Origin: Polaromonas sp. JS666
Lineage (GTDB): Bacteria; Pseudomonadota; Gammaproteobacteria; Burkholderiales; Burkholderiaceae_C
Length of the DNA stretch: 64,000 bases
Direction of reading: 5' to 3'
NCBI RefSeq assembly: GCF_000013865.1
Contig: NC_007948.1
Span: forward strand, 3,720,001 to 3,784,000
Under the pieces are notes generated by a model. It did not search any database, had not been told where the DNA came from, and was given only the letters and a program-made list of their open reading frames with translations. Every line of letters begins with the position of its first letter. Position 1 is the first letter of the stretch. A program made the position numbers and the translations under genes. Shown here one piece after another: positions 41,803 through 44,349 of the stretch.

Positions 41803-42546
41803 TTAGAACAGGTCAAGTATGCGCCATCCGCGCTCGGTGGCGATGGCCCGCAGGCGTTCATCCGGATTGGTGGCCACCGGGCAGCTCACCTTCTCCAGCA
41901 GCGCCAGATCGTTGAGGGAATCGGTGTAAAAGCAGGTGTGCACATCGTGCCAGCCCAGTTCGCGGGCAGCCAGCCATTGCTCCACGCGGGCAACCTTGCC
42001 TTCCCGGAAGGAGGGGGTGCCCTTGATTTCACCGGTCAGCTGGCCCTGGGCGTCACGCGCCAGTTCAACCGCGATCAGTTCCTTCACCCCAAAAGCCTCG
42101 GCAATCGGGCGGGTCACGAACTCATTGGTGGCCGTCACGATCACCAGCTCGTCACCGGCCTCGCGGTGCTGCTGAACCAGCGCCTGGGCTTGCGGCGTAA
42201 TGATCTTCTGAACGACATCCCGCATGAAACTGGCGTGGGCAGCTACTGATTTAGTAACACCCTGTTCGCGGATGGCCCGTGTGGCAAAGCGCACATAGGC
42301 GTGGATGTCGAGCGTGCCGGCGCGGTATTGTGCAAAGAATTCAGCGTTGCGGCGCTTGAACTCGGTGGCTTCGCACCAGCCTTGCGCAATGGTGAACTCG
42401 CCCCATTCGTAATCCGAATCGATCGGGATCAGTGTGTGATCCAGGTCGAACAAAGTAATGCGCGCCCCGGCGCTTTTCGCCACGTACGATTCGCTGCTGT
42501 CCGGATGGGGTAATTTTTTTTCTGGTGGCACTGTGGAAATTTTCAC
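41803..42546 (-). CDS. HAD-IB family phosphatase (SerB-like)
   Basis: This 247-residue hydrolase has motif I FDLDHTLIPIDSD (about 33-42), motif II in VIVTATNEF and motif III YTDSLNDLALLE. HAD-IB enzymes include phosphoserine phosphatase and other small-molecule phosphatases; the exact substrate is not evident. Its GTG start at 42546 overlaps the stop of the upstream nucleotidyltransferase gene (GTGA), implying coupled translation. Segment GVTKSVAAHASF is encoded around 42240 by a small inverted repeat. It stands 60 nt before pcnB. Confidence 0.88.
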   Translation of the reverse strand: MKISTVPPEKKLPHPDSSESYVAKSAGARITLFDLDHTLIPIDSDYEWGEFTIAQGWCEATEFKRRNAEFFAQYRAGTLDIHAYVRFATRAIREQGVTKSVAAHASFMRDVVQKIITPQAQALVQQHREAGDELVIVTATNEFVTRPIAEAFGVKELIAVELARDAQGQLTGEIKGTPSFREGKVARVEQWLAARELGWHDVHTCFYTDSLNDLALLEKVSCPVATNPDERLRAIATERGWRILDLF

Positions 42547-43604
42547 GTCACGACTCCTGTCAACATCTCTCCCAACTTGAGCTCGGGATGCACCCGCTGC
42601 AGGGCAATCAGACCCTCCAGCGCCCGTTTGCGCCAGTCAGGGCCGCGATCCAGCGCGTCGCGCCAGGCATCATGCAGACTTTCCGGCTGCGTCGCCAGCA
42701 GGTAATCAAACAAGGCCGCTGCCTGCTGCAAGTCTTTGTTGGCCTTGGTCCGCATGGCCCCCGACCGCTCACCCACGATCAGCAGCTTGTGCACCGCGTA
42801 ACGTTCCGGCGCGGGAATACTCACCGTCACGGCGCCGCCGTTGCGGTCAACCAGCACCGCCTGCGTCACTCTTTCGAGGGAAAACTCCATGAAACGCAAC
42901 GGCTGCAGGCCGACATTGAGGTTCGGTATGACGATAGGCCCGTCGCCACCCCGGTGAGCCGAAGTCAGGAAATCGATCTGGAATTCCGGATCCCCGCTGA
43001 GCTTGTAGGAAGCACCCGCACCTCCACTGAGCTGGACCAGCGGTATGAAGCCCTGTTCAAAGCTCGTGAGCGCGGCATGCACGTCAATCTGCACATTCGC
43101 CGGCAGCGCGACCGAGATATTCTTGCCGGCGTGCGCGAAATCCACGTCGGTAGTCGCCCCGCCAGCAAACCATTTGACGCCCAGCATGTTGCCAAGAGCG
43201 ATGAAAGCGTGCGTGCCGACCAACACCCCGCCGGCGCGAAAAAAACCATAGTCGGACAGGCGACGGACCGCGCGTACATGCTTGGGCAGGGCCGGGGCGC
43301 ACCCGAGAGCCACTGCGGCCTTGGCTAGCGGCGACAGGGCCGCGTCCGGTTTGATGGTGGGGTTCCGGGCGCGCTCGACCGCCGTGCGGACGGCATCGGT
43401 GTCGGGCCCGACATAGAGCTGGCGCAATTGTCCGTTCAGGTCGCGATAGGAAAAATACCAGTACACCGCACCCTGCACCGTCTTGCGCGAAAAACTGCCA
43501 TGCAGGTTTTCGATGCTGCGGTTTAGCTCCAGCGAAGTCGCCACGTCCGCCAGTTGGGCATAAGCCGTCTGGGCAGAAAGGGGAAGTTCAGCATGCAGGA
43601 GCAT
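42543..43604 (-). CDS. Nucleotidyltransferase-fold protein of the GSU2403/NTP_transf_8 type
   Basis: This 353-residue protein has a DNA polymerase-beta-like nucleotidyltransferase core: LVGTHAFIALGNMLG (hG-x motif, about 129-142) followed by TTDVDFA with the metal-binding DxD at 153/155. The N-terminal 100 residues (VYWYFSYRDLNGQLRQLYVG) are typical of proteins I know as GSU2403-like. Their biochemical role is unknown; related folds include antitoxin and RNA-modifying transferases. It is coupled to the HAD gene and preceded, 8 nt upstream of its ATG, by a perfect 30-bp palindrome. It is an accessory insertion between hda and pcnB. Confidence 0.75.
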   Translation of the reverse strand: MLLHAELPLSAQTAYAQLADVATSLELNRSIENLHGSFSRKTVQGAVYWYFSYRDLNGQLRQLYVGPDTDAVRTAVERARNPTIKPDAALSPLAKAAVALGCAPALPKHVRAVRRLSDYGFFRAGGVLVGTHAFIALGNMLGVKWFAGGATTDVDFAHAGKNISVALPANVQIDVHAALTSFEQGFIPLVQLSGGAGASYKLSGDPEFQIDFLTSAHRGGDGPIVIPNLNVGLQPLRFMEFSLERVTQAVLVDRNGGAVTVSIPAPERYAVHKLLIVGERSGAMRTKANKDLQQAAALFDYLLATQPESLHDAWRDALDRGPDWRKRALEGLIALQRVHPELKLGEMLTGVVT

Positions 43605-43612
43605 GGCCCGAA

Positions 43613-43642
43613 CTATACAACAAATTAATATTTGTTGTATAG
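43613..43642. promoter_or_regulatory. Perfect 30-bp AT-rich palindrome before the nucleotidyltransferase gene
   Basis: Arms CTATACAACAAAT and ATTTGTTGTATAG (13 bp, no mismatch) enclose TAAT. On the minus strand the proximal arm contains TATAGT 9 nt before the ATG, which would serve as a -10 box and imply a leaderless or nearly leaderless mRNA. The palindrome overlapping a -10 box is the layout of an operator. Its AT-rich stem and lack of a GC core argue against an hda terminator. Confidence 0.7.
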
Positions 43643-43662
43643 AGCAATACTTATCCGAGTAC

Positions 43663-44349
43663 TTATCCGTTTTCCAGCATGGATTTGATCAGCGGGATCG
43701 TGATGGCCCGCTTGGTTTGCAGGGCGTAGCTGTCGAGCTGGTCCAGCAGTTGCATGAGGCTTGCGAGGTCGCGCGAAAACCGTGTCAGCATGAAGTCCAT
43801 GGCGTCATCGCCCAGAAACACACCGCGCGCATCGGCTTCGCGCCTGAGCACGGCACGGCGCTCCGCTTCGGTCAGGGCCTGCAGGGCAAACACGTGACCC
43901 CAGCCCAGCCGCGTGCGCAAGTCCTCACGCAAGGCCAGATCGGCGGGCGGCACCAAGCCGGCCGCCAGCACCCAGCGCGGTCGGCCATCGGCCGAATTAA
44001 GAGCATTGACAAACCAGTTGAACGCGGCCTGCTGCTGCACCGCCGTGTAAAGATGACAGTCGTCCAGAATCACGGCGGCCCAGGATTCGCTGAATTCCGG
44101 CGGTTCGAGCACGAACGCATCCATCCAGCCCACCGGGGCGCCCTGCTCCCGCAGCGCCTCGCTGACGGCCCGGAGCAAATGGGTTTTGCCGCTGGCCGGC
44201 TCGCCCCACAGGTAGGTCGGCACCGGTGAACGCAGGGTGTTGCCAGCCCAAAGCTCCAGGTGCTTAAGCGCCGCCTCGTTCGGTCCGCCAAAGAAATTGG
44301 CAAACGACGGGGCGGAGGCCAGCCCGATATCAAGCGCTATCTGTTTCAT
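43663..44349 (-). CDS. hda: DnaA regulatory inactivator Hda
   Basis: This 228-residue AAA+ protein promotes hydrolysis of DnaA-bound ATP with the sliding clamp, limiting re-initiation. It shows MKQIALDIGL (clamp-binding start), Walker A GEPASGKTHLL, Walker B VILDDCHLY and LREDLRTRLGWG (arginine-finger region). It lacks the DNA-binding domain of DnaA, as expected. It follows the AI-2E-family gene by 40 nt in the order usual for betaproteobacteria. Confidence 0.93.
   Translation of the reverse strand: MKQIALDIGLASAPSFANFFGGPNEAALKHLELWAGNTLRSPVPTYLWGEPASGKTHLLRAVSEALREQGAPVGWMDAFVLEPPEFSESWAAVILDDCHLYTAVQQQAAFNWFVNALNSADGRPRWVLAAGLVPPADLALREDLRTRLGWGHVFALQALTEAERRAVLRREADARGVFLGDDAMDFMLTRFSRDLASLMQLLDQLDSYALQTKRAITIPLIKSMLENG

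Follow-up and report, generated by a model that had tools for sequence, protein, structure and literature searches.

A probable self-repressing nucleotidyltransferase without a recurrent partner gene, its N-terminal domain predicted to read a palindrome at its own start codon

The transferase locus between hda and pcnB

On the minus strand of the window (the whole 64,000-nucleotide stretch of Polaromonas sp. JS666 DNA that was analysed), hda is followed by a 58-nt gap, a gene for a 353-aa nucleotidyltransferase, a gene for a HAD-family protein and pcnB (Table 1). A GSU2403-like transferase had been predicted between hda and pcnB, and the gene order was borne out, the protein matching Pfam profile PF12281 (NTP_transf_8) with 209.1 bits against a cut-off of 26.3 (E 1e-61); its only other match falls far below that family's own cut-off. 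The gap, from the hda stop (43663) to the transferase ATG (43604), is the site of a palindrome, CTATACAACAAAT-nnnn-ATTTGTTGTATAG, whose length and perfect arms are as originally described, and the GTG of the HAD gene does overlap the transferase stop codon as GTGA (42543-42546). A whole-genome search allowing up to 3 mismatches found the palindrome as a single copy in the 5.9-Mb genome. In this clade the putative operator lies inside the hda-to-pcnB row, and binding of a protein at 43605-43662 could also impede transcripts that run on from hda to pcnB and the gene for the histidinol phosphatase.

Table 1 Features of the transferase locus in window coordinates, with the basis of each assignment
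Feature	Position	Strand	Basis
hda, neighbour upstream, outside the unit	43663..44349	-	Gene call
Palindrome of 30 bp with perfect arms of 13 bp and half-site TATACAAC, candidate private operator	43613..43642	.	Inverted-repeat recurrence in PF12281
TATAGT hexamer overlapping the right arm, originally predicted as -10 box	43612..43617	-	Chance-level match
PF12281 (GSU2403-type) nucleotidyltransferase, 353 aa	42543..43604	-	Pfam profile; AlphaFold2 model
N-terminal domain, residues 1-100, proposed operator reader	43305..43604	-	AlphaFold2 model; coupling
Residue 52 codon (Ser in the window protein), top-ranked column for operator base 6	43449..43451	-	Tree-aware scan
Residue 54 codon (Arg here), first column for bases 8 and 9, not significant	43443..43445	-	Tree-aware scan
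Residue 60 codon (Leu in the window protein), top-ranked column for operator base 7	43425..43427	-	Tree-aware scan
Nucleotidyltransferase domain, residues 109-318; G130-T131, D153-x-D155, D211 conserved	42651..43280	-	Profile, conservation, fold
HAD-family histidinol phosphatase, housekeeping neighbour, probably outside the unit	41803..42546	-	NCBIfam; genus survey

The AlphaFold2 model of the transferase is confident (pLDDT 88, pTM 0.86) and has two domains. The N-terminal one is predicted as alpha-beta-beta-beta-alpha (H9-27, E37-43, E46-54, E60-67, H70-80). In the catalytic core, G130 and D155 are invariant among 80 sequences and T131, D153 and D211 are conserved in at least 90%, giving the G-[ST] motif and three acidic residues; we take G130-T131, D153, D155 and D211 to be the catalytic residues from the fold. 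The best structural matches of the core include MenT toxins, a likeness in transferase fold that makes toxicity of the enzyme conceivable, although we lean slightly against it.

Recurrence and diversity of the palindrome in PF12281

Upstream regions were scored by their best inverted repeat near the start codon and counted as positive at a score of at least 8. Such a repeat was detected at 105 of 114 loci, compared with 2.3% of shuffled regions; none of these loci was dropped, and several are copies of one another (109 distinct upstream regions). Among the best 80 of at least 556 database relatives, 74 transferase starts were positive, against 16 of 476 starts of neighbouring ORFs. Further PF12281 genes, mostly distant and drawn from class and phylum samples, carried the repeat in 33 of 39 cases against 20 of 780 shuffles (two of 41 loci had no usable row), and a later held-out set did so in 53 of 62 against 23 of 1240, after 13 duplicates, 3 loci with short upstream sequence, 4 partial genes and loci with no matching ORF had been left out. 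Pooled over all distinct upstream regions, window included, the repeat recurs in 208 of 240, the shuffles (about 2%) having been run on the three component sets only. Three misses of a narrower scan (L098, L108 and L125) have inverted repeats scoring 7, 11 and 9 that end 45-47 nt before the assigned start. PF12281 is a widespread family: with the genome of the window included in every sample, matches occurred in 53 of 399 genomes at the level of the order, 12 of 369 at that of the class and 53 of 398 at that of the phylum. This recurrence fits the earlier suggestion that a protein bound here would occlude expression, and the palindrome is very probably a DNA operator of the transferase gene.

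The half-sites themselves are diverse. Within the subfamily of the window they include TATACAAC, TATACTAC, TATACTCC, GTTACTATAC and GTTGCTAAAC, among others, and more distant members have many half-sites with no resemblance to these, such as TTTCCGTCAAATT and GATTTGTAGTAGAC; TATAC is kept in some distant members. Two more PF12281 genes are present in the window genome, with palindromes GTCTTCAA.. and ATTGGCCGTA.. at their starts, such that its three PF12281 genes have three unlike palindromes.

Several single loci deserve mention. The upstream regions of L070, L080, L093, L100 and L112 hold extra alternating half-sites or two neighbouring palindromes, and are candidate binding-site arrays. One relative (L023:1480-2529) lacks the D-x-D motif and also has a poor palindrome (score 5, reaching 8 in another scan only by entering coding sequence), which would look like a joint decay of enzyme and operator. 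Two genomes hold near-identical PF12281 copies at more than one site (L024, L025, L030 and L031), all with a TTTCAGTAA palindrome. A mobile element with its end at the palindrome was considered and rejected, as these copies share sequence on either side of the gene and no clean ends are visible. Among L136, L138 and L124, one upstream palindrome and protein start is shared by entries titled Piscinibacter and Verrucomicrobia, and another relative bears a Planktophila title; these titles are probably metagenome binning errors.

A promoter had been read at the palindrome, with TATAGT as the -10 box 9 nt before the ATG of a leaderless mRNA. The distance is in fact 7 nt, and the sigma-70-like match (TATACA-18-TATAGT, 9/12) is one site against a shuffle mean of 0.5 (sd 0.8), hence the promoter call is not above chance. 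In 23 of 78 measured family members, the right arm either enters the start codon or leaves no more than 0-4 nt in front of it, and so lies too close to be the -10 box of that start. A leaderless promoter built on this hexamer is thus not a conserved feature and was rejected. A -35-like hexamer (at least 4/6) is correctly spaced from the left arm in 18 of the 78 and from the right arm in 12 (background 8%), making the left arm a slightly better -10 box, though not decisively.

An inverted repeat over an mRNA start could instead act as an RNA hairpin, through which the transferase protein or a ribosome-level effect would control translation. The arms do change while staying complementary, often against the start codon, and the N-terminal domain offers some encouragement, since a dsRNA-binding domain would show its elements in the same order and the top profile hits by sequence are the dsRNA-binding domains of RNA helicase A (E 0.013 and 0.031), which leaves the argument from homology for a DNA role weak. 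The mismatches can be compared directly, as an RNA hairpin would tolerate G.U pairs and not A.C. In an earlier count of 84 arm mismatches, 24 were G.T, above the 13% predicted from composition, but A.C was as common (n = 23), and both exceeding 13% would be expected of transitions in a DNA dyad. Within the arms of all 208 palindromes, G.T occurred 8 times and A.C 15 times; with the first flanking mismatches on either side added, the counts were 112 and 97 (p 0.33). Spacing also counts against a hairpin: among the 109 distinct regions, TATAC..GTATA pairings have a span of 28 bp (16 cases), 29 bp (38) or 30 bp (5), with 7 shorter ones, a nearly constant spacing that places the half-sites about two helical turns apart. 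In addition, many members keep the letters of the TATAC core, and coupling to protein residues extends to two further bases, as described below. Spacing and mismatches therefore favour a DNA element over an RNA hairpin, and we regard the hairpin as unlikely.

Coupling of operator bases to N-terminal residues

Of 172 distinct proteins, 79 have genes whose operator shows the TATAC..GTATA pair, and co-variation between protein and operator was examined in these; the other 93, with no such pair of the right span, were left out. The tree was built from the catalytic domain alone, and 335 variable columns were compared with labels evolved at random on it, a simulated set of labels being retained when its balance was close to that of the observed labels, in 400 null runs at first and then in a repeat with 1000 simulations. 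Rows whose two half-sites differed were dropped for each base, which kept 77, 69, 55 and 46 of the 79 for bases 6 to 9. An early coupling at the level of half-site classes, which left out loci with repeat scores below 7, identities below 42% and L137, was set aside as evidence because the three broad classes are single clades, requiring only two changes on the tree.

For base 6, residue 52 ranked first of the 335 columns (information 1.147, next column 0.895, family-wise p 0.009), and for base 7 residue 60 did so (1.227, next column 0.86, p 0.003). Residue 54 ranked first for bases 8 and 9 and was non-significant family-wide (p 0.14 and 0.24). Several columns outside the N-terminal domain, some of them in the catalytic domain, also exceeded all 400 null runs, with less information; examples are columns 191, 179 and 339 (base 6) and columns 206 and 135 (base 7). 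Residues 52, 54 and 60 are located in strands 2 and 3 of the predicted N-terminal sheet, at positions along the sequence that would fit one face of it.

Sequences fetched after the scan provided 17 usable rows of 62 for a held-out test. The rules held there: Gln52 went with T6 in 9 of 9 rows, against 1 of 7 others (three of these being alignment gaps); Arg60 went with C7 in 3 of 3, against 0 of 12 others; and Leu, Val, Ile or Met at residue 60 went with A7 in 7 of 8, against 0 of 7 others. Fisher values for these counts take no account of kinship. Of the three Arg60 rows, two are related to a clade already present in the first set and the third (L309) is distant. Taking both sets together, C7 with Arg60 is found in four separate clades, two of them adjoined by sisters with A7 and Leu60; the placing of L309, one of the C7-Arg60 cases, is poorly supported on the tree. 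The code has exceptions, namely C7 with Thr60 (L202), Arg60 with G7 (L199) and A7 with Ser60 (L074 and L269), and Gln52 also occurs with G6 in 3 of 5 cases.

The palindrome alone names no binder, and a regulator encoded elsewhere in the cell could in principle control such genes, with the transferase merely its target. Such a regulator would have to bind half-sites that differ between PF12281 subfamilies and among three paralogues of one genome, at a palindrome with no second copy in that genome, and would leave unexplained why two operator bases co-vary with residues of the transferase's N-terminal domain, one of them in four separate clades. We consider it improbable. The possibility raised originally, that the transferase binds its own promoter, is the better reading: judged from sequence co-variation it is the likely binder, and we think it quite likely that the transferase protein itself reads the palindrome.

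Partner genes, proposed model and related systems

The HAD protein scores 286.5 against the NCBI histidinol-phosphatase model (NCBIfam; cut-off 280), and the model begins at residue 29 of the ORF, suggesting that translation may natively begin elsewhere than at the coupled GTG. Of 61 genomes sampled from the genus, 58 have the gene, and hda and the HAD gene adjoin with no transferase between them in all 29 congener loci examined (loci having been obtained for the best 30 matches). Of the best 80 of at least 556 transferase relatives, only five have the transferase between hda and the HAD gene (L062-L065 and L106), all close kin of the window transferase (72-95% identical) from Polaromonas, Ramlibacter and an unclassified Pseudomonadota bin; L003 is a further locus with the two genes adjacent, giving six related loci. 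No such HAD gene was found near the transferase in the other 75 of the best 80, within the DNA examined (flanks of at least 1 kb on both sides in 63 of the 80). The HAD gene is thus probably a bystander, and the pairing of transferase and phosphatase as a modification/demodification or toxin-antitoxin pair, to which the GTGA overlap and the six adjacent loci had lent appeal, was rejected as very improbable. In Polaromonas sp. P2-4 (L106:4900-6100) the transferase frame is broken at the hda/HAD site, with a palindrome-like sequence still readable upstream.

A recurrent partner of any other kind was not found among ORFs of at least 45 aa within 4 kb in the best 80 of at least 556 loci (L106 and L109 were left out of the protein list for alignment). 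The largest cluster comprised 11 of the 80, at varying distance, and appeared by eye to consist of polysaccharide genes. The same survey revealed no recurrent adjacent ORF that could be an antitoxin, the neighbours in the window being hda and the histidinol phosphatase.

We therefore propose, as the probable reading of the locus, a self-repressing nucleotidyltransferase with no recurrent partner gene, whose own N-terminal domain would read the palindrome at the start codon. Two copies of the predicted sheet domain would sit there on the same face of the DNA, and the bound transferase would block the promoter and ribosome-binding region of its gene; that reading of the palindrome represses the transferase gene is itself probable. 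The enzyme would be harmful enough to need tight control, its substrate perhaps being a tRNA end, as for MenT, and the HAD gene would probably take no part. A broader and more doubtful extension is that PF12281 genes make up a large family of one-gene toxin-like modules with private operators, in which the DNA-binding role of an antitoxin has been built into the enzyme and no antitoxin is needed. If true, each copy would have a private operator, read by a small code in the sheet that matches residue 52 to base 6, residue 60 to base 7 and perhaps residue 54 to bases 8-9, allowing several PF12281 copies to share one cell without cross-talk. Palindrome and code suggest how a toxin-like enzyme could be controlled with no antitoxin, and PF12281 might, if the reading is right, be a source of mutually blind DNA-reading domains. 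Palindrome and residue-to-base code together give this family of unknown role a sharp and cheap test.

In the AbiE and MenAT (DUF1814) systems the antitoxin gene is adjacent, whereas PF12281 has no recurrent antitoxin gene among the 80 loci surveyed. The reader of the AbiE repeats is an antitoxin protein of its own, carrying a winged helix-turn-helix; in PF12281, the reader would be a predicted sheet domain fused to the transferase itself. The catalytic core has a transferase fold like that of MenT in the predicted model. No DUF1814 match was obtained up to E 10 in a Pfam scan of 20 members of alignment A1, window protein included, all 20 of which matched PF12281, the only family to match well; no AbiE or MenAT system was listed by PADLOC. 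Some relatives carry precomputed PF20586 labels, which could not be reproduced in the six checked.

The three-stranded sheet on a helix that is predicted for the N-terminal domain is also the arrangement of integrase arm-binding domains (Tn916 and P4 type) and plant AP2 domains, with no confident structural or sequence match to either. A comparison of the domain with the PDB likewise gave no confident structural match and no known fold. The arm-binding domain of tyrosine integrases differs in being fused to a recombinase, the N-terminal domain of PF12281 being fused to a transferase. In the papers searched, neither the PF12281 accession nor its name occurred, GSU2403 occurred in one paper whose title is on another subject, and nothing direct came up on the binding mode.

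BirA and PutA are enzymes that repress their own genes, each combining enzyme and DNA-binding regulator in a single protein, as proposed here. PF12281 differs from them in being a scattered gene family, through which the arrangement recurs with operators that are private and diverge from one another. In HEPN/MNT modules (PMC7641770), a nucleotidyltransferase-fold protein likewise stands in a toxin-antitoxin setting, and PF12281 differs in having no recurrent neighbour family among the best 80 of at least 556 loci. At one locus, the second PF12281 gene of the window genome (L177:1502-4661), the transferase lies 14 nt after a short RloB-like (AbiL-type) ORF and has a HipA_C ORF downstream, surroundings that look like a defence or toxin-antitoxin neighbourhood.
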